Positions 11,382-51,280 of a stretch of DNA of 64,000 bases are shown here, one piece after another. The position numbers and the translations under genes are program-made. The notes under the pieces are model-generated. The model saw only the letters and a program-made list of their open reading frames with translations. It ran no database searches and was not told the origin of the DNA. Position 1 is the first letter of the stretch, and each line of letters opens with the position of its first letter. Source of the DNA: Candidatus Gastranaerophilales bacterium (GTDB lineage: Bacteria > Cyanobacteriota > Vampirovibrionia > Gastranaerophilales > CAJFVJ01); the NCBI GenBank assembly GCA_944323485.1, contig CALUSR010000003.1, positions 62,001 through 126,000 of the forward strand, read 5' to 3'.

Positions 11382-13760
11382 TTAATGTAATTTTATAAGT
11401 CCTTCAAAGGTCAGTTTATCAACAATTTCCTGAGGAATATATTCGCTAACTCCGCCTGCCTCAGTTTGCAGTCGATAAGTAAGACGGGGTGTTTGAGAAG
11501 ATATTCCGAGTTCGTTGAGCCTCAGCCATCTGTAAGTATCCGTAAGATATTCGTTATATGCGTCAAAACTTTTGTCATCCATCTTCTTTATGGCATCCAT
11601 TATGTCTTTATATTTAGCATAATCTTTATGATCAGGAGTAATTTTACCCTGTCTTATATCATATGGAATGTGCTCTACTTCAGCAAACTCATGAACCATA
11701 GTGCCCCGAACCTGCAGCTCGCCGTTTCCTGTTGTTCCGTCTGCAAAAGTATGTTCAACATTCATCTGAGAAGATGTATACCCTGAAGCTTTTATTGCGC
11801 CATCATCAGTTGCCTTCTCAAAGATAGTTCCTTTTGATCCGAATTTTTCTCCCGACTCTTCTGTTGCTTGAGTGACAAGCTTCAAAGGACTGCCTGTTTT
11901 TTCTTTATATATCCGTGCTATTTCATCTATCTGAGCCCTTGTGAAATATGAAGAATACTCATCTCCGTAGTTATTCAGCTCGGTAATTTTTATCTTTTTA
12001 TTATTTTGTATAGCATCAATCAATGCATCAAAAACTTCTTTGTTTTGAGCTTCTTTCAGAGGGTCAAGTATATTAGAAATATTGTGCTCTATCGTAGCTG
12101 AGAGTTCAGGAGAGAGATTTGAGCCTCCTTCAAAATAGTTTTGTATATCAGCATAAGTAATCCCCGCTTTTTGGAAAACATCATTGTGCGCAATAATATC
12201 TTCAACTATTGCTTGTGTTTCTTCCGGATTAAGATTTTTCATCCTGAGTCTTGTACCGTAGGCATCTCCTATTGCCCCACGGCAATCATCAATATCGGTT
12301 GTTTTTAATTTACCTTTTTCAAATTTCGATTTCAATTTTGATTTTATTGAACTTTCACCTTTTGAACGGGCGCCGACTCTATGTGTTTTAGCATCATCGG
12401 CAAAAGCTACAGAATCTTTTGAACCGAACACTTCTTCTATTTGTTTCTGAGCCTCGCTGACTTTACCAGAATATTCTTTTGCCAAAGACTCTGCCCTGTT
12501 GTCCAACACTTTATTGGTATCAGCATCAAGGTATATTTCTCTTTTCAATGAGCCATCATCATTATAATGAAACTTTCTTGCCGAACCGTTTGCATAATCA
12601 ATGCTGTCAACTTTTCCGTTGGCTTTATGAGTATGAGTTTCAAGAATGCGTCCTTGCGCATCATTTATGGTATCAAGACGTCCGTTTCCGTCATAGTTTT
12701 TGACAACAGTAACTTTTCCGTCTTTTGAAATCGTACTTCTCTTTATTTTGCCGTTAGGATAATATTCTATATCTGCATAAGAGCCGTCTTTCAACTGTTT
12801 ATGAAGAAAGCTTTTATCTTCTAATCCGAGAACTTCTGTTTGTTCAAGAGTATTTGATTCTTGATATGTTTTTGCAGACTTATCTGCAGGAAGAACTTCT
12901 ATGCCGTCTTTTCTAAATTTTACGCCATAAGTAACACCGCCAAGAGCGCCTCCCATTACAGCCCCTCCGACAGCTCCTGACACTGCCGATGATGCAAGTC
13001 CTGCAGCACTAAATTCTTTGTCTTCTTCAAAGGCACATTCAATTGCATAATCCGCTGAATTCGATACGGCACCGTCTATTGCTCCGGCTTTTGCCCCTGT
13101 GATAACACCCTGTTTTACGGCTTCTTTTGTTGAAGAGGCAACAATTGTTCCAGCATTTGTAACACCGCCAAATGTTACAACTGACAGAACACCGTTTACA
13201 GCACCTGAAGCAGCGTCTTTGAGCCCGTCTTTCAATGTGTAATCGCCATCTATATCGTTGGTTGCTTTTTCCCCGCCTTCTATACCGACTTTTACTGCTG
13301 CACCAACTCCTGCTGCCGCCAAAAAGCCGAGGCCTCCTGTTGCCACACCTACTGCGGCAACTGTTATTCCTGATGCAATATTTGAAACAAGGCTCACCAT
13401 TGAATCCTGTTTTGTTCTGTATTTATCTATAGCCTCTTCTGCTTCAGAAAGACTTATTTCTCCTTTTTCTGCTTTTTCTATAGTTTCTTCTATAGCGTCA
13501 GAACCATTTTTATGCCCGAAAAAGTTCTTTATGCCATCCCAGGCTTTTCCCAAAAATCCCTGTTCTTTTTTTGCATTTTCAAATTCTTCTCTCAAAGTTT
13601 CAACTGATGAAGCTCCATTTGTAGAACCAAACGTTTCCGTATTCTCAAATACAGATACATCTTCATTTAAGCTTTCACCTTTTCCTTGTATGCTATTTGA
13701 AGAAAAAGCTGTTTGCTTAAGTTCATAGTCAGAAGAATTTAGTGATAGATAGTTGGACAT
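11382..13760 (-). CDS. Polymorphic-toxin-like protein with a C-terminal RelA/SpoT-type synthetase domain
   Basis: This 792-residue protein has a polar N-terminus (1-118), Gly/Ala-rich hydrophobic stretches (about 122-160 and 184-278) that could cross or insert into a membrane, and YD-like repeats (about 322-412). The C-terminal domain (about 455-790) carries the RelA/SpoT synthetase motifs in order: RSKGESSIKSKL (465-476), D499-x-x-G-x-R504, G660-Y661 and E681-L-Q-V-R685, then AEVEH (693-697). The Mg-binding Asp and Glu and the base-stacking Tyr are therefore kept. The D-to-Y spacing is 162 residues against 44 in RelSeq, so there is an insertion of over 100 residues. A (p)ppNpp-making or tRNA-pyrophosphorylating toxin is the inference; no secretion gene is nearby. 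Confidence 0.72.
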   Translation of the reverse strand: MSNYLSLNSSDYELKQTAFSSNSIQGKGESLNEDVSVFENTETFGSTNGASSVETLREEFENAKKEQGFLGKAWDGIKNFFGHKNGSDAIEETIEKAEKGEISLSEAEEAIDKYRTKQDSMVSLVSNIASGITVAAVGVATGGLGFLAAAGVGAAVKVGIEGGEKATNDIDGDYTLKDGLKDAASGAVNGVLSVVTFGGVTNAGTIVASSTKEAVKQGVITGAKAGAIDGAVSNSADYAIECAFEEDKEFSAAGLASSAVSGAVGGAVMGGALGGVTYGVKFRKDGIEVLPADKSAKTYQESNTLEQTEVLGLEDKSFLHKQLKDGSYADIEYYPNGKIKRSTISKDGKVTVVKNYDGNGRLDTINDAQGRILETHTHKANGKVDSIDYANGSARKFHYNDDGSLKREIYLDADTNKVLDNRAESLAKEYSGKVSEAQKQIEEVFGSKDSVAFADDAKTHRVGARSKGESSIKSKLKSKFEKGKLKTTDIDDCRGAIGDAYGTRLRMKNLNPEETQAIVEDIIAHNDVFQKAGITYADIQNYFEGGSNLSPELSATIEHNISNILDPLKEAQNKEVFDALIDAIQNNKKIKITELNNYGDEYSSYFTRAQIDEIARIYKEKTGSPLKLVTQATEESGEKFGSKGTIFEKATDDGAIKASGYTSSQMNVEHTFADGTTGNGELQVRGTMVHEFAEVEHIPYDIRQGKITPDHKDYAKYKDIMDAIKKMDDKSFDAYNEYLTDTYRWLRLNELGISSQTPRLTYRLQTEAGGVSEYIPQEIVDKLTFEGLIKLH

Positions 13761-13842: not shown

Positions 13843-14634
13843 TTATCGTCTATTATTAAGATTTATAAACGGAATGCTCTCCCCCATCATATATTGAGGA
13901 AGAATACCGTTCCATTTTTGAACAGCTTCATATTCAACGAGAGCTTTATTTTTTGAAAGTGCATTTGCTCTTATAGCCATAGATTTTGCTTCCGCTTCAG
14001 CAGAAATAATTTGTTGTTTTGCTTCTTCTTCAATTTGAACAGTTTTATTTTTTGCTTTCAGTGCATCCTGTTCTGCTGTAACCTTAGCTTCAATAGCTCT
14101 TTCAAATACATCCGAATAATCGATTGCCACCATCTGAAAATCAGTAATATTTATATAGTTCCTATCAAGATGTGTTTGGAGTTTTGAGAGAATTTCGCGA
14201 GTCGCTTTTTCTCTGTTTGCGACAAGATCCTGAGCATTCCATTTTCCTATTACATCTTTCAAAGTCCCTTCTACAACAGGGAGGAGAATTTTCTCACGAT
14301 AATCAGTACCGACTTCTCTATACATTTTATGAGCGTTCTCAGGCTGCAAGTTGTAGTTGATGACATAAGATATGACAGCCTGTTGAATGTCCTTTGTATA
14401 AACAGGTGTCTGCATTGTGTCTTTTTGTGTTTTTACATCCATTGTTTTGATGTGTGATATGAACGGAGTAATCAGGTGAATACCTTCAGTATAACTTTCA
14501 GGAGAAACTTTACCGAGAGTAACCTTTACCCCTCTTTCACCGACACCGACCATGGCAATAGGATTGCATAATAAAAGAAATATAATTATTCCGAAAATTG
14601 TTAAAATCGTTGCAATATTTTTTGTAGTATTCAT
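13843..14634 (-). CDS. SPFH/prohibitin-family membrane protein
   Basis: SPFH proteins form membrane-attached oligomeric rings, often working with proteases. Residues 9-28 are a single N-terminal membrane segment. The band-7 domain follows (about 30-200), including GERGVKVTLGKV. A long charged helix rich in Ala/Glu/Lys (about 185-235) leads to the conserved ILPQYMMG near the end. I chose the ATG at 14634 because AAGGA lies nine bases upstream, whereas the ATG at 14652 has none. It resembles prohibitin-type HflC homologues. The small membrane protein upstream is probably co-transcribed. Confidence 0.85.
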   Translation of the reverse strand: MNTTKNIATILTIFGIIIFLLLCNPIAMVGVGERGVKVTLGKVSPESYTEGIHLITPFISHIKTMDVKTQKDTMQTPVYTKDIQQAVISYVINYNLQPENAHKMYREVGTDYREKILLPVVEGTLKDVIGKWNAQDLVANREKATREILSKLQTHLDRNYINITDFQMVAIDYSDVFERAIEAKVTAEQDALKAKNKTVQIEEEAKQQIISAEAEAKSMAIRANALSKNKALVEYEAVQKWNGILPQYMMGESIPFINLNNRR

Positions 14635-14663
14635 AAAAATGTATCCTTTCATTTTTTATCAGG

Positions 14664-42420: not shown

Positions 42421-43606
42421 TTAGTTTTGTTTCACCCATTTTCCATTTATGAGTTTGATTGATGATTTTTCTGTAGTCGTAATATCTCCATCTCTAAAAT
42501 GTATTTTAACTCCCTCTGCGTAAGAAGAAGGAGAGCCGTTCTCAAACTCAAGTTCTTTCGCTATCTTTTCTGCTGCCATCTGCTAATTCTTCAAAGCCTT
42601 CCTGGTAGTAATCAGGCTTTCCTTCGATAAAGTTTATTCTTTTTGCACACTTACTGCCTCCACCTGCTAATTTTTCATAGCCTTCCTGGTAGACATTAGG
42701 CTTTCCTTCGGTAAAGTTTATTCTTTTTGCACACTTACTGCCTCCACCTGCTAATTTTTCATAGCCTTCCTGATAGTAATCAGGCTTTCCTTCAGAGAGC
42801 ACAAGATTTTTTGCATACTTCCAGCCGCCACTTGCTAATTGTTCATAGCCTTCTTGGTAGACATTAGGCTTTCCTTCGGTAAAGTTTATTCTTTTTGCAC
42901 ACTTACTGCCTCCACCTGCTAATTTTTCATAGCCTTCCTGGTAGAAATCAGGATTTCCTTCGGTGAACACAAGACTTTTTGCATGCTTCCTGACTCCATC
43001 CGCTAATTCTTCAAAACCTTCCCGGTAGTAAGACGGTTTTCCATCCTCAAAATCCATATCTGTATTTCCGGTTATATCTTCTATTCTAGATGGTTGTAAA
43101 GAGTCAATTTCTGTTTTTCTGATAATGGTAGAACCATCTTCTCCATATTCTATCAGTTTTTTAGGTTTTCCATTCTCAAGTTCAAATTTTCTCAAAAGTT
43201 TTCCATTTTCTCCGACTACATCACGATATCCGTTTTTGGAGCCGTTATCAATGAAGGAGATGACCTCATCAAATGTTTTCTTCATTTTTTCAACTGTTGT
43301 CGAAACAATATCATCCCCCATTTTTTTGACATCTTCTGCTGTATTATTTGCCTTTTGTGCAAACTCTTCAGCTGATTGAATGGTTTTTTGCACTTCTTCT
43401 GGTATTTTTCCTTTTCTCAGCATTGATATTCCAGCAAATGCAATTGCTGCAAGCCCTGTCGCTGCAGCAGCGCCAATGAGTGCTTTGTTTACTTTTTTCT
43501 TTCCTTCAGGTTTTTCAGGTGTCTGAGCTATTTCTGTCTGTTGTGGTGCCGAGGCTCTTCTCGTGAGAAAATCATTGAGAATTGGGGATGGATTTATATT
43601 TGTCAT
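42421..43606 (-). pseudogene. 28-residue-repeat membrane protein with a frameshift near its C-terminus
   Basis: The intact frame from 43606 runs to a TGA at 42548 (352 residues). The protein has a polar N-terminus, one membrane helix (about 42-63), a helical region, and six repeats of 28 residues like YQEGYEKLAGGGSKCAKRIN then FTEGKPNV. In the sixth copy the match stops at ADGSRK. In the next frame it continues as IAKELEFENG-SPSSYAEGV and ends at TAA 42421. Removing one A from the AAAA run at about 42570 restores the frame. AAAGG supports the ATG at 43606. A homopolymer error in assembly is likely, but a true switch is possible. Function unknown. Confidence 0.7.
42581..43084 (-). repeat. Six 84-nt in-frame direct repeats
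   Basis: Units begin at 42581, 42665, 42749, 42833, 42917 and 43001, exactly 84 nt apart. The units at 42665 and 42833 differ at only two bases. This is a coding repeat (28 residues), not a CRISPR. Confidence 0.92.
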
Positions 43607-43690: not shown

Positions 43691-43715
43691 AAAAACGGCG
43701 ATATACGCCGTTTTT
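43691..43715. terminator. Terminator of the hybrid-cluster-like gene
   Basis: AAAAACGGCG and CGCCGTTTTT form a 10-bp stem around ATATA, five bases after the stop at 43720. Confidence 0.92.
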
Positions 43716-43719
43716 CTAT

Positions 43720-45375
43720 CTACTCCATACCTAATAAATTGGTCAGCTCTTCATCCTCAGGAGAGGGATTTTTAATTTTTATACCGAATTTTTTCATAAA
43801 CGTTTCATAAACCCCTGGAGATATATTATAAGGGAGGATATTTCCTATTTTATAATTTCTTATTCCCAAAGAATAGAAAGATAACAAAACAGGCAGCAGG
43901 TTATCCTGACCTGAATAGACAACAACAGATATAAGATTTTTCTCTTCATCCTTAGTTAAAAACTCCCTGAAAAAAGATATGAACCTCAGCATAGAATAAA
44001 AATTTTCATAGATACCTGCTTCTATAAACCTTGGTATTCCTTCAATTGTTCCAAGTTCTTTTTCTTCAGGAAGATATCCGAATCCTGAAAATTTTATTAC
44101 TATAGAATCTTCAGGCAGAGTTTTGAGCAAATTTTGCATATATTCTCCGAAAGACGGCATCAGAAGACTTCCGCTCACAAGAAATATATGTTTGAGTTTC
44201 CCTTTTTTGAAAAGAGTTTTCATCTTTTCGATATAAGATGATAAAATCCCTTTTGTACAGTCTATATCAACAAATTTTTCAGACGGAGTTTCTATAAATC
44301 CCTCGGAATCCATAGCTGATGTCACAACTTTTGAAAAATTATCTTCGCTGACATAATCAACGCCTCTCCAAAACGGGATACTTGTCGTAAACATCCTTCC
44401 TCTATAGACTTCAGGCGGGTCATAAGAGCAGTCAGAGTTTATCATAACAGGTCCAGGAAAGCTCTCGATATCCATCTGCTGATCAAGCAGGATATCTCCA
44501 TAGTTTCCGACTAAATTCGAAAACTGACGCAGCTCAGGATAGCAAAAGGCAAGCATCATTTCTCCATGGGTGTAGACATCTATATTTTTACTCTGTGTGG
44601 TTTTCAAGATAGCTTCTAAATCTCTGATGTTATTCCCTGAAACAAGGATGGCTTTCCCTTTTCTCGGAGTAATTCTTACTCTTGATGGAGATGGTTCACC
44701 GTATCTGGAAATAAGCGCATCATCAAAGAGGTGCATAGAATCATAATATATTTCCCCTGAATCAATCAAAATTGCAGAAAGTCTCTCCTCAGATACATAG
44801 TCTATGCTTAAAGAATATAGTGTTTCAAGGAAAAAGTCATAAATTTTTTCGCTTTCAAAACCAAGATTTTTTGAATGCCGGGCATATTTTGCTATTCCTT
44901 TGAGGGCAATTATCACAAGTTCTCGAAGATTGTATATATATTCATCACTGAATATCTCACGCTTTTTTCGAAGAAGTCTTTCGCCTTCTTTGAGGATATC
45001 AGATATTTTATACTTTGCATGCCAGTGATAACCATCAGGCATTATATCAATCGAGAACCCTCTGTCCTTTGATATTTGCACATACTTTGCCTTTATTGCG
45101 TCTTTTGCCTGTTCCAGTTCTTTTACAAGCTCCAATATAACCCTATCATCAATAAGTATGTTATTGATTGTCACATAGAAAACTTTTATTGCTATATGGT
45201 TAAATTCATCAATATTTCCGCTAAAGTGTTTTATTTTATTTGCATATACGCTTATATATTGAACGCCTCTCATCAAATATTCTTCAATAGCGCTGCCGGT
45301 TGGACTTTTTGCACAAATTGATTTTATACGGCACGCTCTTGTATAAGAATCAAAGTTATCGCCATAAGAAAACAT
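43720..45375 (-). CDS. Hybrid-cluster-protein homologue lacking most metal ligands
   Basis: The 551-residue protein aligns by eye with Hcp (hydroxylamine / NO reductase): IDVYTHGEMMLAFCYPELRQ, NYGDILLDQQ, and GTIEGIPRFIEAG all have direct counterparts. Of the seven hybrid-cluster ligands known from Desulfovibrio Hcp (H244, E268, C312, C406, C434, C459, E494), only the Glu (E272) and one Cys (C316) survive. The others read N248, S403, S430, Y456 and Q490. In the N-terminal cluster region two of four Cys are gone (S3, D6; C15 and C21 remain). It is probably not an Hcp-type redox enzyme. The role is unknown. GAGAGA precedes the ATG. Confidence 0.82.
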   Translation of the reverse strand: MFSYGDNFDSYTRACRIKSICAKSPTGSAIEEYLMRGVQYISVYANKIKHFSGNIDEFNHIAIKVFYVTINNILIDDRVILELVKELEQAKDAIKAKYVQISKDRGFSIDIMPDGYHWHAKYKISDILKEGERLLRKKREIFSDEYIYNLRELVIIALKGIAKYARHSKNLGFESEKIYDFFLETLYSLSIDYVSEERLSAILIDSGEIYYDSMHLFDDALISRYGEPSPSRVRITPRKGKAILVSGNNIRDLEAILKTTQSKNIDVYTHGEMMLAFCYPELRQFSNLVGNYGDILLDQQMDIESFPGPVMINSDCSYDPPEVYRGRMFTTSIPFWRGVDYVSEDNFSKVVTSAMDSEGFIETPSEKFVDIDCTKGILSSYIEKMKTLFKKGKLKHIFLVSGSLLMPSFGEYMQNLLKTLPEDSIVIKFSGFGYLPEEKELGTIEGIPRFIEAGIYENFYSMLRFISFFREFLTKDEEKNLISVVVYSGQDNLLPVLLSFYSLGIRNYKIGNILPYNISPGVYETFMKKFGIKIKNPSPEDEELTNLLGME

Positions 45376-45602: not shown

Positions 45603-45641
45603 AAAAAAGAGAGAGAAAAGAATCTTTTCTCTCTCTTTTTT
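45603..45641. terminator. Terminator of the rpo operon
   Basis: A perfect 18-bp stem of A/G (AAAAAAGAGAGAG...) against its complement, with a 3-nt loop, lies 17 bases after the rpoC2 stop. Confidence 0.9.
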
Positions 45642-45657
45642 TAAAGTATATTTCAGC

Positions 45658-48600
45658 TTATTCTATTGTAAAATCAGGAGAACCGAACATACCCTCGATT
45701 TCTTCCAAAATCGCAGACGGTTTTCTTGCATTACCTTTAGCTGAACGCTGCTGCTGCAGGTCATCTTCTTCAGATGAATGAGTGAGGTGATAGAAACCTG
45801 TACCTGCCGGTATCAATCTACCGATGATAACGTTTTCTTTCAAGCCTCTCAGGTAATCTTTCTTACCTTCTACTGCAACTTCAGTCAATATTCTTGTTGT
45901 TTCCTGGAAGCTGGCTGCTGATATGAAGCTTTCCGTATTCAAAGAAGCCTTTGTAATACCGAGCAATACATATTCATATGTAGCAGGAGTACCTTCTGTT
46001 TTTGCAACTTCAGCATTCTCAGCTTCAATAGTTGCAAGTTCAACCAACTCACCAGGCAGAAGTTTCGTATCGCCGGAGTCAACAACTTTAACTTTCTTGG
46101 TCATCTGACGTACGATAATTTCGATGTGCTTATCGGCAATTTCTACACCCTGTGAGCGGTAAACTCTTTGAACTTCATCAACGAGATATTCCTGAACAGC
46201 TTCTTTTCCGCTCAATCTTATAACATCATGAGGGTTAAGAGGACCGCTTGTCAAAGGCTGACCTTTTTTAATTTCCTGTTTATCGGATACAACAATGTTT
46301 GCGTCGATAGGATATTTAATTTCCTTACGTCCTGCTTCAGTTACAAAGAACAATCTTGCAGAATCTTCGTCATATTCGATTTCAACAGTACCGTCTTCTT
46401 CTGAAAGAATAGCACTTTCTTTCGGCTTTCTTGCTTCAAGAAGTTCTTCTACTCTCGGAAGACCTTGGACGATATCACCCGTTTTTTGACGTTCAAAAAT
46501 CAAAGTACCAATCATATCACCACGGAGTACGAGGTCATTCTGGTCAACCTGCAAAAGAGCACCGGCACTGACCAAATAAGGTCTGCCTTTTCTTATAACA
46601 AGTTCTTTTGAAGTTACATCAACTACGACACCTGATACCGGAGAAATCTGTCCTTTTTCTGAAATCGTCTGGTCAATTGTGACAAAGTCACCTTTTTTTA
46701 CTACAGCTTTTGAATCAAGAGCTATTTTTTCTTTCGCTTCATCAGAAATCAAAAGCAGACGACGCAGTTCAGCACCTTCTTCATAATTTTTCAGGCTTGC
46801 CACTGCATCATTTGCAGCAAGGACCTGAGTTTTTGAAACAGGTGATTTAGGTTCGATTATCTGACCGTTTTTGACCAGCAGTTCTATTTGCATAGAGTTT
46901 TTCTGCTGCAGGTTTTCAACTTCTCTTCTGATAATCAGGTTCTCAAGAACGACTATTCTCAAGTTGTTATCATGTTTTTCAACAAGCCCTTTCAGGTGGC
47001 TCAAATAGCCCTGCATTTGGATAACAAGGCTTGTTCTGACAAGAGCGGCACCTTCAAGATTTCTGATTACGCTTCCATCTTTATATTGAAGTTGTGTAAC
47101 AGGAACTATATCGATGATTCCGTTTTCTGTTGAAGAGAACTTAATAGATACTTCCTTAGGAGTCATATCATATTCCTGAACAGGTCTGATAAGAATCTGT
47201 ACAGGAACATCATCCATCACAACTTCTTCTTCCTCAGATGATTCTTCCATGATGGTTTCTTCTTCCATCATTTCTTCTTCATCATCGATATCGCCTACTT
47301 CTTCATCGATAAACAAAGAAGTTGCATTATCCTGAGAAAGAACCGTAATTAAAGATTTTTCCTTAACCTTTATACCTTTTGCAATCTCAGTTCCTGCTTC
47401 AACTATATCACCATCTTCAACTTTCAACTCATTGATGCTGTCGATGGTTTTGATTTCACCGGAGCGGATTACAACTTCGTGGATAATATTGTTGAATTCA
47501 CGAATTTCAACAATACCGTCGATGTGAGTGTAAACATCTTTAACTACTTCGGTACCTGCTGTTACATAAGTGCCTGATTCTACCATCTTCAAAGAAGCAT
47601 CTTTGCTCATTTGGTGCGTTTCTTCAGGAATGAACAAAATCTTACCGGGTTTTGTAATTATTTGATGTTCATCAACTTCTATTCCTTCGTATCTGATTTC
47701 ACCGCTTGATGTAACAACATTCTCTTCATCAATCAGCTCGGCGATAATCATACCGTTTTCAACAACCGTTCCTTCAGGCGATTTAATAATATATTTCTCA
47801 CCTGTTGATTCAACATTCCAGATAAGTTCTTTCTTTGTATCCTCAAGAACAGCGTTTTCAGGTTTAATTGAAGCGATTACGATTGTAAGTTCTTTACCTC
47901 CCACAACCTTTGTGATTTTTCCTTCTTTTTGAAGTTCCAGTCCTTCGCTGAATCTAACTTCACCGCCATGTTCGCTGACTATTGATGTTTCAGCTAAGAT
48001 ATCGCCCTGTTTAACATTCTGACCGTCTTTAACAAGTATTTTAGAACCGAACGGAAGGTTATAAACATCTCCGCCCAATACCCATATAATACCGTTTTTA
48101 TTCGCAGTTCTTGAAATGTTTCCGTGTCTGTCACGTTTTTCATCGGCGACAAGACCATCATAAACAATTTCACCGCTTACGTCAGAGTTGATATCTTTTG
48201 TTGCTTTCTCTGTCAGACGGCTTCCTTCACCTTGTGTTGCAGGTTCAAATACAGCAAGGATATCTCCTTTATTAACTTCAGAACCTTTTTTAACGTATAC
48301 AACAGCATTGTAAGGAATATGATATTTATGTTTTCTACCTTTTTTATCTTCAAGTTCGACATCTATTTCTCTGATGCTTACCTGCACCATATCACCATGA
48401 CGTGTTCTGAAATCACGAGTAGGAATATCTGAAGCGATAACACCGTCAAAATCAGATGTAATCTGGCGCATAGAACCTGAACCACGGAATACACCGCCTG
48501 TGTGGAATGTTCTCATGGTAAGCTGAGTACCTGGTTCACCGATACTCTGCGCAGCGATAATACCGATTGCTTCACCGACGTCTACCAGACTGTTTTGAGT

Positions 48601-49533
48601 CAATGCCCAACCATAGCACTTCTGGCAAACACCGTATTCAAGACCACAGGTAAGAGGAGATCTGACTTTTGCTGATTGGAGATGCAATGTTTTGATTTTT
48701 GCCAAGTCTTCTCTTGATATTGTTGTGTTTTTCTCAACAACGACATTACCTTCGGCATCTTTAATGTCTTCGGCGATTGTTCTGCCTAAAAGACGTTCTT
48801 CCAAAGAAACAATATCTCTATCACCGTCTTTGATAGCAGTCATAATAATGCCATCATCAGTTCCGCAGTCTTTATCTCTGATAATAACATCCTGTGCAAC
48901 GTCAACAAGTCTTCTTGTCAGATATCCTGAGTCAGCTGTTTTCAAAGCTGTATCAACAAGACCTTTTCTTGCACCGTAGCTTGAAATGATGTATTCTGTA
49001 ACGCTCAAACCTTCTTTGAAGTTTGACTTAATCGGCAAGTCGATAATCTGTCCCTGAGAGTCAGCCATCAAACCACGCATACCGACAAGCTGGCTAACCT
49101 GAGAAACGTTACCTCTTGCGCCTGAGAATGCCATCATATATACAGGATTCAATCTATCAAAGTTATCAACAACACTCTTTGTTAACTTTTCTGTTGTTTC
49201 ACTCCAAGTATCGATAACTTTTGTATAACGTTCAACTTCGGTAATTTCACCTTTGATATAACGTTGTGTTGATTTTTCGATTTCCAATTCGGCTTCTTTA
49301 AGCAAATCTTTTTTTACAACAGGAACGTCCAAGTCTTCGATAGAAATTGTTGTGCCTGCTTTTGTTGCATATCTGAAGCCAAGGTTTTTCAGAGTGTTCG
49401 CAAGATAAGCCGTCTTAGCTCCGCCGAATTCCAGATAAATTTGAGCCAGAAGGTTTTTCAAACCTTTTTTATCGACTGTTGTATTTATGAATTCAACACT
49501 CTTTTTTGTATGTTTTGGTATTAAAGTACTCAT
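45658..49533 (-). CDS. rpoC2: RNA polymerase beta-prime subunit, C-terminal part (RpoC2)
   Basis: This is the second half of the split beta-prime subunit. Its N-terminus corresponds to the cyanobacterial RpoC2 start (FINTTVDKKGLKNLLAQIY). The bridge helix is in VYMMAFSGARGNVSQVSQLV and the trigger loop in IGEPGTQLTMRTFHTGG (near 345). A long insertion of about 670 residues (roughly 350-1015), the SI3 type, then separates it from DIVQGLPRVEELLEARKP. An acidic stretch lies at about 743-773. The ending GRLIPAGTG is conserved. It has its own GAGG, 31 bases after rpoC1. It is the last gene of the operon. Confidence 0.96.
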   Translation of the reverse strand: MSTLIPKHTKKSVEFINTTVDKKGLKNLLAQIYLEFGGAKTAYLANTLKNLGFRYATKAGTTISIEDLDVPVVKKDLLKEAELEIEKSTQRYIKGEITEVERYTKVIDTWSETTEKLTKSVVDNFDRLNPVYMMAFSGARGNVSQVSQLVGMRGLMADSQGQIIDLPIKSNFKEGLSVTEYIISSYGARKGLVDTALKTADSGYLTRRLVDVAQDVIIRDKDCGTDDGIIMTAIKDGDRDIVSLEERLLGRTIAEDIKDAEGNVVVEKNTTISREDLAKIKTLHLQSAKVRSPLTCGLEYGVCQKCYGWALTQNSLVDVGEAIGIIAAQSIGEPGTQLTMRTFHTGGVFRGSGSMRQITSDFDGVIASDIPTRDFRTRHGDMVQVSIREIDVELEDKKGRKHKYHIPYNAVVYVKKGSEVNKGDILAVFEPATQGEGSRLTEKATKDINSDVSGEIVYDGLVADEKRDRHGNISRTANKNGIIWVLGGDVYNLPFGSKILVKDGQNVKQGDILAETSIVSEHGGEVRFSEGLELQKEGKITKVVGGKELTIVIASIKPENAVLEDTKKELIWNVESTGEKYIIKSPEGTVVENGMIIAELIDEENVVTSSGEIRYEGIEVDEHQIITKPGKILFIPEETHQMSKDASLKMVESGTYVTAGTEVVKDVYTHIDGIVEIREFNNIIHEVVIRSGEIKTIDSINELKVEDGDIVEAGTEIAKGIKVKEKSLITVLSQDNATSLFIDEEVGDIDDEEEMMEEETIMEESSEEEEVVMDDVPVQILIRPVQEYDMTPKEVSIKFSSTENGIIDIVPVTQLQYKDGSVIRNLEGAALVRTSLVIQMQGYLSHLKGLVEKHDNNLRIVVLENLIIRREVENLQQKNSMQIELLVKNGQIIEPKSPVSKTQVLAANDAVASLKNYEEGAELRRLLLISDEAKEKIALDSKAVVKKGDFVTIDQTISEKGQISPVSGVVVDVTSKELVIRKGRPYLVSAGALLQVDQNDLVLRGDMIGTLIFERQKTGDIVQGLPRVEELLEARKPKESAILSEEDGTVEIEYDEDSARLFFVTEAGRKEIKYPIDANIVVSDKQEIKKGQPLTSGPLNPHDVIRLSGKEAVQEYLVDEVQRVYRSQGVEIADKHIEIIVRQMTKKVKVVDSGDTKLLPGELVELATIEAENAEVAKTEGTPATYEYVLLGITKASLNTESFISAASFQETTRILTEVAVEGKKDYLRGLKENVIIGRLIPAGTGFYHLTHSSEEDDLQQQRSAKGNARKPSAILEEIEGMFGSPDFTIE

Positions 49534-49564
49534 CTAATTATTACCTCAATCTGTTCAACTATTC

Positions 49565-51280
49565 TTAAGAGCTCAAAACAGCGCTTCTTACCGCTTCGTT
49601 GAAAATAATTCTGCCCACTGTAGTTTCGATTTTCGCACCGTGTTCATCTCTTACTATAATCTTGTCATGGAGTTTCAATATTCCTGCTTCATGAGCGGAG
49701 ATTGCATCGTCATAAGAGAAGAAAGTGCCTTTTATCTGAGCATCTTTATCTTTCAATATGGTCAGATAATAAATACCAAGAACCATATCTTGTGAAGGAG
49801 TAATTATCGGCTGCCCTGTTGCAGGAGCTAAGATGTTATTTGTAGCAAGCATAAGCATTCTTGCTTCTGTCTGAGCTTCTATTGACAGTGGTACGTGAAC
49901 AGCCATTTGGTCACCGTCGAAGTCAGCGTTAAAAGCCGTACATACAAGCGGGTGAAGTTGGATTGCACGACCTTCCACAAGTACAGGTATAAATGCCTGA
50001 ATACCAAGTCTGTGCAGTGTAGGAGCTCGGTTCAGAAGAACCGGATGCCCGTCAATTACTTCTTCCAATATATCCCATACAACGTTCTCGGAACGTTCTA
50101 TTTTCTTTTTAGCTGATTTAATATTTTGAACGATACCTCGTTCTATCAATTTGTTTACAACAAAAGGCTTGAACAGTTCGATTGCCATCTCTTTAGGCAA
50201 ACCGCATTGATGCAGCTGAAGCTGAGGACCGACAACAATAACGGAACGACCTGAGTAGTCAACACGTTTACCGAGAAGGTTCTGTCTGAAACGACCCTGT
50301 TTACCTTCGATGATATCGCTCAATGACTTAAGAGGTCTGTTATTCGGACCGAGAACGGTTCTTCCTCTTCTGCCGTTATCCATCAGGGCATCGACAGCTT
50401 CCTGAAGCATTCTTTTTTCGTTTCTTACGATAATTTCAGGAGCTCCCATCTCAAGCAATCTTAACAAACGGTTATTTCTGTTGATAACTCTTCTGTATAA
50501 ATCGTTCAAATCGCTTGTTGCAAAACGTCCGCCGTCTAACTGAACCATAGGTCTTAAGTCAGGCGGAGTAACAGGAAGAACATCCATAATCATCCATGAA
50601 GGATTTGTGTTGCTGGCAGAAAGAGCTTCAGCAAGTCTTAATCTTTTGATTAATTTTGCTTTCTTCTGCACTGATGAACCGACATGAGCAAGTTCTTCCC
50701 TGATTTGTTCAGCCATATCAGCCATGTTTATTTCTTCGAGCAGAGTTTTTATTGCCTCGGCACCGATACTGACTTTCAGCTGAGTATCTTCATGTTCAAG
50801 AACATAATCTTCATATTCTTCTTCCGTCAACAACTGGCATTTTTTGAATTCTGTTTCACCCGGATCAAGAACAATGTAGTTATTAAAATAGATAACCTGT
50901 TCCAAATCCTTCAAAGACATATCCAAAAGCAAACCAAGGTAACTCGGAATACCTTTCAAAAACCAGATATGGCTTACAGGTGCAGCAAGTTTTATATGAC
51001 CGATACGGTGTCTTCTTACTTTGCTGTCAGTAACTTCTACGCCGCAGCGTTCACATATAATCCCTTTGTGACGAACTCTTTTGTATTTACCGCAATAGCA
51101 TTCCCAGTCTTTTGATGGTCCGAAAATTCTTTCGCAGAACAGACCGTCTCTTTCCGGTTTCAATGTACGGTAGTTAATGGTTTCAGGTTTGGTAACCTCA
51201 CCGTGCGACCATTTCAGAATACGCTCAGGAGAAGCGATTCCGATTTTTATATAATCAAAATAATCAATACTAGTAGACAA
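49565..51280 (-). CDS. rpoC1: RNA polymerase beta-prime subunit, N-terminal part (RpoC1, gamma)
   Basis: The 571-residue protein has the zinc-binding N-terminus ([20 protein letters not shown]) and the catalytic [12 protein letters not shown] motif (near 450). It ends at [17 protein letters not shown], the same boundary as in cyanobacteria. The start is TTG at 51280 with GGAG eight bases upstream. The split from rpoC2 is real: both genes have their own ribosome-binding site, and the reading frame is not merely interrupted. Confidence 0.97.

Follow-up and report, generated by a model that had tools for sequence, protein, structure and literature searches.

We found that a 64,000-nucleotide stretch of DNA from a Candidatus Gastranaerophilales bacterium (hereafter the window) encodes a homologue of the hybrid cluster protein (Hcp) that has lost most of its hybrid-cluster ligands, that belongs to a ligand-poor clade with a single origin, and that is under purifying selection. 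We are highly confident that this protein, which we will call pseudo-Hcp, is a maintained Hcp paralogue without the cluster: the ligand loss, the origin and the selection are observed, and the loss of the cluster is what we infer from them. Pseudo-Hcp has probably taken on a new role. Our best explanation as a whole, that it is a maintained pseudoenzyme that would now act as a thiol redox protein, is offered tentatively, as nearly an even call.

The sister species, Candidatus Adamsella avium, was assembled from a chicken metagenome and is part of the Melainabacteria group; we take it to belong to the order Gastranaerophilales. Its pseudo-Hcp is 95% identical to that of the window and was the sole match when genome contigs were queried with the single protein, a query that reaches close relatives only. 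The gene and its surroundings are as follows.

42548..43606 (-), downstream gene for a repeat protein of 352 amino acids; also adjoins pseudo-Hcp in A. avium; dN/dS 0.38
43691..43717 (-), perfect inverted repeat that resembles a terminator, right after the stop codon of pseudo-Hcp, found by inspection; kept in A. avium
43720..45375 (-), putative cluster-less Hcp paralogue (pseudo-Hcp) of 551 amino acids, identified from its open reading frame, profile and PDB matches, ligand read-out and structural model
45603..45641 (-), hairpin that resembles a terminator, located between rpoC2 and pseudo-Hcp, from a terminator scan
45658..49533 (-), upstream gene for an rpoC2-like RNA polymerase subunit (named by eye); same neighbour in A. 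avium and in the sister genus (G002)

A reading of this DNA from sequence only had described a clean frame, a ribosome-binding site and a terminator, and the sequence agrees: the open reading frame (43720-45375 (-)) starts with ATG and has no internal stop, a purine-rich stretch that is also present in the sister species lies before the ATG, and an inverted repeat (AAAAACGGCG-TATAT-CGCCGTTTTT) follows the stop codon. The automatic terminator scan missed this repeat, probably because the run of T residues forms part of the stem. The hairpin at 45603..45641 suggests that pseudo-Hcp is a transcription unit separate from rpoC2. As for the neighbours themselves, RNA polymerase beta-prime appears by eye to be split into genes of 571 and 1291 amino acids (45658-51280 (-)); a split into rpoC1 and rpoC2 is the arrangement of Cyanobacteria. 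The repeat protein (42548-43606 (-)) is built of YYxEGFEELADG-type units with a weak match to DUF2963 and adjoins pseudo-Hcp in both Adamsella genomes. It is present in A. avium as two tandem copies (L004 7770-8831 and the next open reading frame) and is evolving faster (dN/dS 0.38).

The protein aligns with Hcp over its whole length, as had been claimed. The Pfam Prismane family (PF03063) matches residues 13-532 with 206.7 bits (8e-61; the gathering score is 27), and the top PDB match is Hcp from E. coli (7de4; residues 18-541, 1e-66). The NCBIfam model for hydroxylamine reductase (TIGR01703) gives 335.5 bits, which is below its cut-off of 360.8, and relatives in the family f2 (our numbering) score about 150-203 bits. 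Pseudo-Hcp has just five cysteines in total. It is the sole Hcp homologue in the window's genome (99.5% complete), which has no canonical Hcp.

We read out each ligand position from the numbering of Desulfovibrio vulgaris Hcp and checked the codons.

45367..45369 (-), Ser3, replaces Cys3 of the N-terminal cluster
45358..45360 (-), Asp6, replaces Cys6 of the N-terminal cluster
45331..45333 (-), Cys15, N-terminal cluster cysteine, kept here and in 92% of the degenerate set
45313..45315 (-), Cys21, N-terminal cluster cysteine, kept here and in 89% of the degenerate set
44632..44634 (-), Asn248, replaces hybrid-cluster His244
44560..44562 (-), Glu272, corresponds to hybrid-cluster Glu268, kept
44428..44430 (-), Cys316, corresponds to hybrid-cluster Cys312, kept
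44167..44169 (-), Ser403, replaces the persulfide ligand Cys406
44083..44085 (-), Gly431, replaces Cys434
44008..44010 (-), Tyr456, replaces Cys459
43906..43908 (-), Gln490, replaces Glu494
43837..43839 (-), Ile513, the site of the second new invariant cysteine in f2 relatives

In this alignment, 2 of 7 hybrid-cluster ligands are kept and 5 are replaced, and 2 of the 4 cysteines of the N-terminal [4Fe-4S] cluster are kept. The earlier count of five replaced hybrid ligands stands, as do the replacements by Asn, Ser, Tyr and Gln; the second serine does not, since Cys434 corresponds to Gly431 and the claimed Ser sits one residue before it. The two missing N-terminal cysteines (Cys3 to Ser3 and Cys6 to Asp6) were correctly described. 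A lysine beside Glu494 that is conserved in Hcp (WYEQK) is also gone and is Asn492 in the window protein, and Gly489, one residue before Gln490, is the site of the first new invariant cysteine in f2 relatives. Judging from these residues, one would not expect pseudo-Hcp to bind the known hybrid cluster in the way that Hcp does. Because the protein falls short of the TIGR01703 cut-off and lacks both defining ligand sets, the window gene should not be labelled as a hydroxylamine reductase.

An AlphaFold2 model of the window protein (from 64 homologues) has a mean pLDDT of 85.1 and a pTM of 0.89, with values below 50 only at residues 1-8 and 11-14. In Foldseek, Hcp crystal structures are its top matches (1e1d and 7de4, TM 0.79), while structures of carbon monoxide dehydrogenase (CODH) reach only about 0.47; the alignments behind the models included canonical Hcps, so that an Hcp fold was expected, and the occupant of the pocket is outside the models' reach. 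The model of an f2 member (L058) is similar, with a pLDDT of 88.0, residues 1-23 below 50, and a TM of 0.81 to 1e1d. The predicted match to 1e1d and the placement in the tree (see below) point to an Hcp fold and common descent with Hcp. Structure prediction had been proposed as a check on the first reading, and its outcome agrees with that reading.

We found an Hcp-type match in 357 of 383 genomes of the order. A profile of the degenerate type matches 122 of 124 f2 genomes, as counted from the table and with canonical copies included, and direct reading of 71 f2 proteins showed the degenerate type. Ligand counts among 114 distinct proteins are bimodal, with the full set of seven hybrid ligands in 38 and 0-3 in 76. 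The ligand-poor paralogues occur in three families of the order (f1, f2 and f7) and are near-universal in the largest, f2. Genomes of the class beyond the order are mostly without a match, and the matching proteins that were read are canonical. Two genomes, G001 and G002, each hold a degenerate and a canonical Hcp at separate loci. The degenerate protein of G002 keeps 4 of 4 N-terminal cysteines and 3 of 7 hybrid ligands and is an intermediate within the degenerate clade.

In the families f3, f4 and f5, the canonical hcp is mostly in an operon with genes for an Rrf2 regulator and a ferredoxin (L047-L049, L009-L017), which is likely a nitric oxide (NO) response unit in the order. No canonical Hcp was found at the pseudo-Hcp locus among the relatives' loci that were read; in G001 and G002 the canonical copy lies elsewhere, and in f3/f4/f5 it is mostly in the operon just described, so that the all-ligand relative at the same locus, which had been named as counter-evidence to a re-purposed protein, did not turn up. 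Other neighbours of pseudo-Hcp (response regulator-MinD, MatE, PFK and repeat proteins) have no consistent theme. In genus g29 (L042-L044; 2457-3605 (-) in L042), a fusion of a response regulator and a MinD-type ATPase follows pseudo-Hcp after a gap of 27-92 bp.

In a tree of 37 proteins, built with the ligand columns and one column on either side masked, a single clade unites the degenerate proteins (support 100/99) and was present in 200 of the 200 bootstrap trees counted. This clade is nested inside Hcp and adjoins the canonical Hcps of f3/f4/f5 (88/87). A different clade (97/92) contains the canonical Hcps of G001, of G002 and of most f2 genomes that were read. A separate degeneration of the window's lineage was rejected by the AU test (p-AU = 0.0017), and the grouping is not an artefact of the ligand columns, as it persists when they and their neighbours are masked. 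The ligand-poor clade has a single origin; due to long branches, exactly where it attaches within Hcp is less certain than that it is one clade.

Between the window and A. avium, pseudo-Hcp has a dN of 0.027 and a dS of 0.268, for a dN/dS of 0.10. Of the neighbouring genes, rpoC2 has 0.02, three nuo genes have 0.07-0.09, a fourth nuo gene has 0.25, and the repeat protein is at the high end. Among five other close pairs of pseudo-Hcps, four have a dN/dS of 0.04-0.07 and the fifth has 0.13. The value of 0.10, near those of the nuo genes, is what had been predicted for a maintained gene, and it fits with the open frame and with retention across the clade. The idea that the window gene is a pseudogene in early decay could draw on the branches, which are longer than in canonical Hcp, and on an internal stop that was read in a few relatives' loci. 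We consider it extremely improbable, and it is ruled out by the dN/dS and the near-universal retention, along with the open frame and the one ancient origin. From its sequence, the window protein qualifies as a putative pseudoenzyme, with lost catalytic residues and purifying selection. The selection, the model and the lack of an all-ligand relative at the locus together support the earlier proposal of a re-purposed Hcp fold, in which the new function itself is a suggestion. Beyond that proposal, the degeneration is clade-wide with a single origin, and large groups of relatives have new invariant cysteines, many with a linked glutaredoxin.

Two cysteines (positions 477 and 501 of L034) are present in 71 of 71 degenerate f2 proteins and in 0 of 38 canonical ones. 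Cys477 directly precedes the position of the Glu494 ligand, and each of the two lies just past the end of one of two successive strands, so that they may be close together in the predicted structure. A third cysteine (position 105 of L034) is shared by 87% of the degenerate set, about 90% of which retain the old pair Cys15/Cys21. Neither cysteine of the new pair occurs in the window protein, which has Gly489 and Ile513 at these sites and Ser102 at the third.

Furthermore, a glutaredoxin gene is directly upstream of pseudo-Hcp in 40 of 71 f2 loci and in 12 of 24 genera, with spacing from a 23 bp overlap to a 27 bp gap; none is directly upstream of canonical Hcp (0 of 38 loci). There are two types of linked glutaredoxin: a GST_N_3/glutaredoxin-type protein of 76 amino acids, in a conserved block beside rpsG-rpsL, and a classical glutaredoxin of 88 amino acids, at another locus in genera g35 and g40. 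These types are unrelated, and the linkage represents two independent events rather than forty. The rpsG-locus block counts as one event because general gene order may have kept it together. The active sites (n = 29) are CPYC in 22, CPFC in 1 and CPYS in 6, so that a monothiol (deglutathionylation) mechanism would suffice. A GshB-type protein (PF02955) is encoded in the window's genome and in 51 of 60 genomes of the order. No linked glutaredoxin was found at any f1 or f7 locus, in several f2 lineages, or at the window's locus, although the window's genome has two glutaredoxin-family genes elsewhere. The glutaredoxin-linked proteins of L113, L114 and L117 have lost the N-terminal cysteine pair.

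These observations suggest the following scenario. Once, in an ancestor of f1, f2 and f7, a duplicate of the order's Hcp lost the ligands of the Fe-S-O hybrid cluster and half of the [4Fe-4S] site while the Hcp fold stayed. Purifying selection has since maintained it for a role that is unlikely to be the reduction of NO or hydroxylamine at a hybrid cluster, and the fold would now carry out redox chemistry through its cysteines. In f2, the new pair beside the old cluster pocket might be oxidised, nitrosylated or glutathionylated and then reset by the upstream-encoded glutaredoxin with glutathione. In the window's genus, only Cys15/Cys21 and Cys316 are left of the old ligand cysteines; either these thiols would work with a glutaredoxin encoded elsewhere, or the protein would be a scaffold that binds a protein or a ligand. 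A thiol role served by glutaredoxin is the best-supported proposal for the family's present function, and we hold this mechanism tentatively, at somewhat less than an even call. It applies to the family and is no more than a possibility for the window member, whose lineage has neither the new cysteines nor a linked glutaredoxin. We are more doubtful that the family amounts to an order-specific class of Hcp fold in which the Fe-S-O cluster was swapped for an invariant cysteine pair and a dedicated glutaredoxin.

The lack of new thiols in the window's lineage, despite its dN/dS of 0.10, also fits a scaffold or sensor without redox chemistry, in which the cysteines would have a structural role and the emptied pocket would be a binding site for a partner protein or small molecule. 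The conserved FPG, YRGR and THG motifs fit this too, as does the absence of a glutaredoxin neighbour in f1, f7 and several f2 genera. We think this rather unlikely, as structural need would not account for two added cysteines that are invariant across highly divergent f2 proteins, or for a glutaredoxin that was linked twice independently. Another cofactor could also sit in the emptied pocket, which counts against the thiol mechanism. A different metal centre, such as a simpler Fe-S or Zn site, might use Cys15/21, Glu272 and Cys316 in the window protein or C17/C23/C105/C477/C501 in relatives. The retention of Cys15/Cys21 in about 90% of the set, the three further cysteines that are near-invariant in f2, and the G002 protein with its four N-terminal cysteines and three hybrid ligands are consistent with such a site. 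But there are only five cysteines in the window protein, model confidence is very low at residues 1-14 (1-23 in L058), and f7 and L113/L114/L117 have lost Cys15/21, which together make a metal centre improbable.

The presence of both genes in G001, G002 and many f2 genomes might suggest that pseudo-Hcp is a regulator or partner of canonical Hcp. However, the degenerate gene is alone in the window's nearly complete genome and in many f2 genomes, and it never adjoins canonical Hcp in the loci that were read. Because the window's genome has no canonical Hcp, pseudo-Hcp cannot be an Hcp helper there, and we consider this role very improbable for the family.

Pseudo-Hcp resembles class I/II Hcp (TIGR01703, PF03063; 7de4 from E. 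coli and 1e1d from D. vulgaris) in its full-length homology and predicted fold. It differs in having lost 5 of the 7 hybrid-cluster ligands and half of the four N-terminal cysteines, in its sub-threshold TIGR01703 score, and in lying outside any Rrf2-ferredoxin-hcp operon. Class III Hcp and Ni,Fe-CODH share its Pfam family and superfamily fold, but class III Hcp retains all seven ligands (PMC10502027) and lacks about 100 amino acids of the class I/II middle region, which pseudo-Hcp has. Some groups of CODH also have altered ligand sets (PMC6344411), but CODH structures match the pseudo-Hcp model poorly (TM of about 0.47). RefSeq names the product of E. coli hcp a protein S-nitrosylase. Pseudo-Hcp shares its fold and possibly a thiol-directed role; however, the cluster of E. 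coli Hcp is regarded as the source of the nitrosyl group (PMC10210160), and most of the cluster ligands are gone from pseudo-Hcp.

The metallocluster ligands have been described as conserved across the three classes of Hcp (PMC10502027). In the literature that we searched, with partial coverage, we found no description of a ligand-less Hcp or of Hcp in Melainabacteria/Gastranaerophilales. A near-universal family with a single origin of ligand loss, along with the half-way form in G002, shows how a complex metalloenzyme can be put to other use; if the proposed mechanism is true, a metalloenzyme was converted to a thiol redox protein. In these gut bacteria, annotating pseudo-Hcp as "hydroxylamine reductase" would be incorrect. 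The new cysteine pair and the glutaredoxin link make its function directly testable.

Elsewhere in the window, a prohibitin/SPFH-like protein (13843-14652 (-), by eye) is encoded close to ribosomal protein genes. It is about 80% identical (over 237 amino acids) to a gene at the f2 pseudo-Hcp locus L034, as compared to only 24% for the Hcp-like proteins. Nearby, 11382-13760 (-) encodes a protein of 792 amino acids that contains YD-like repeats; its C-terminal region appears, by eye, to resemble RelA/SpoT.
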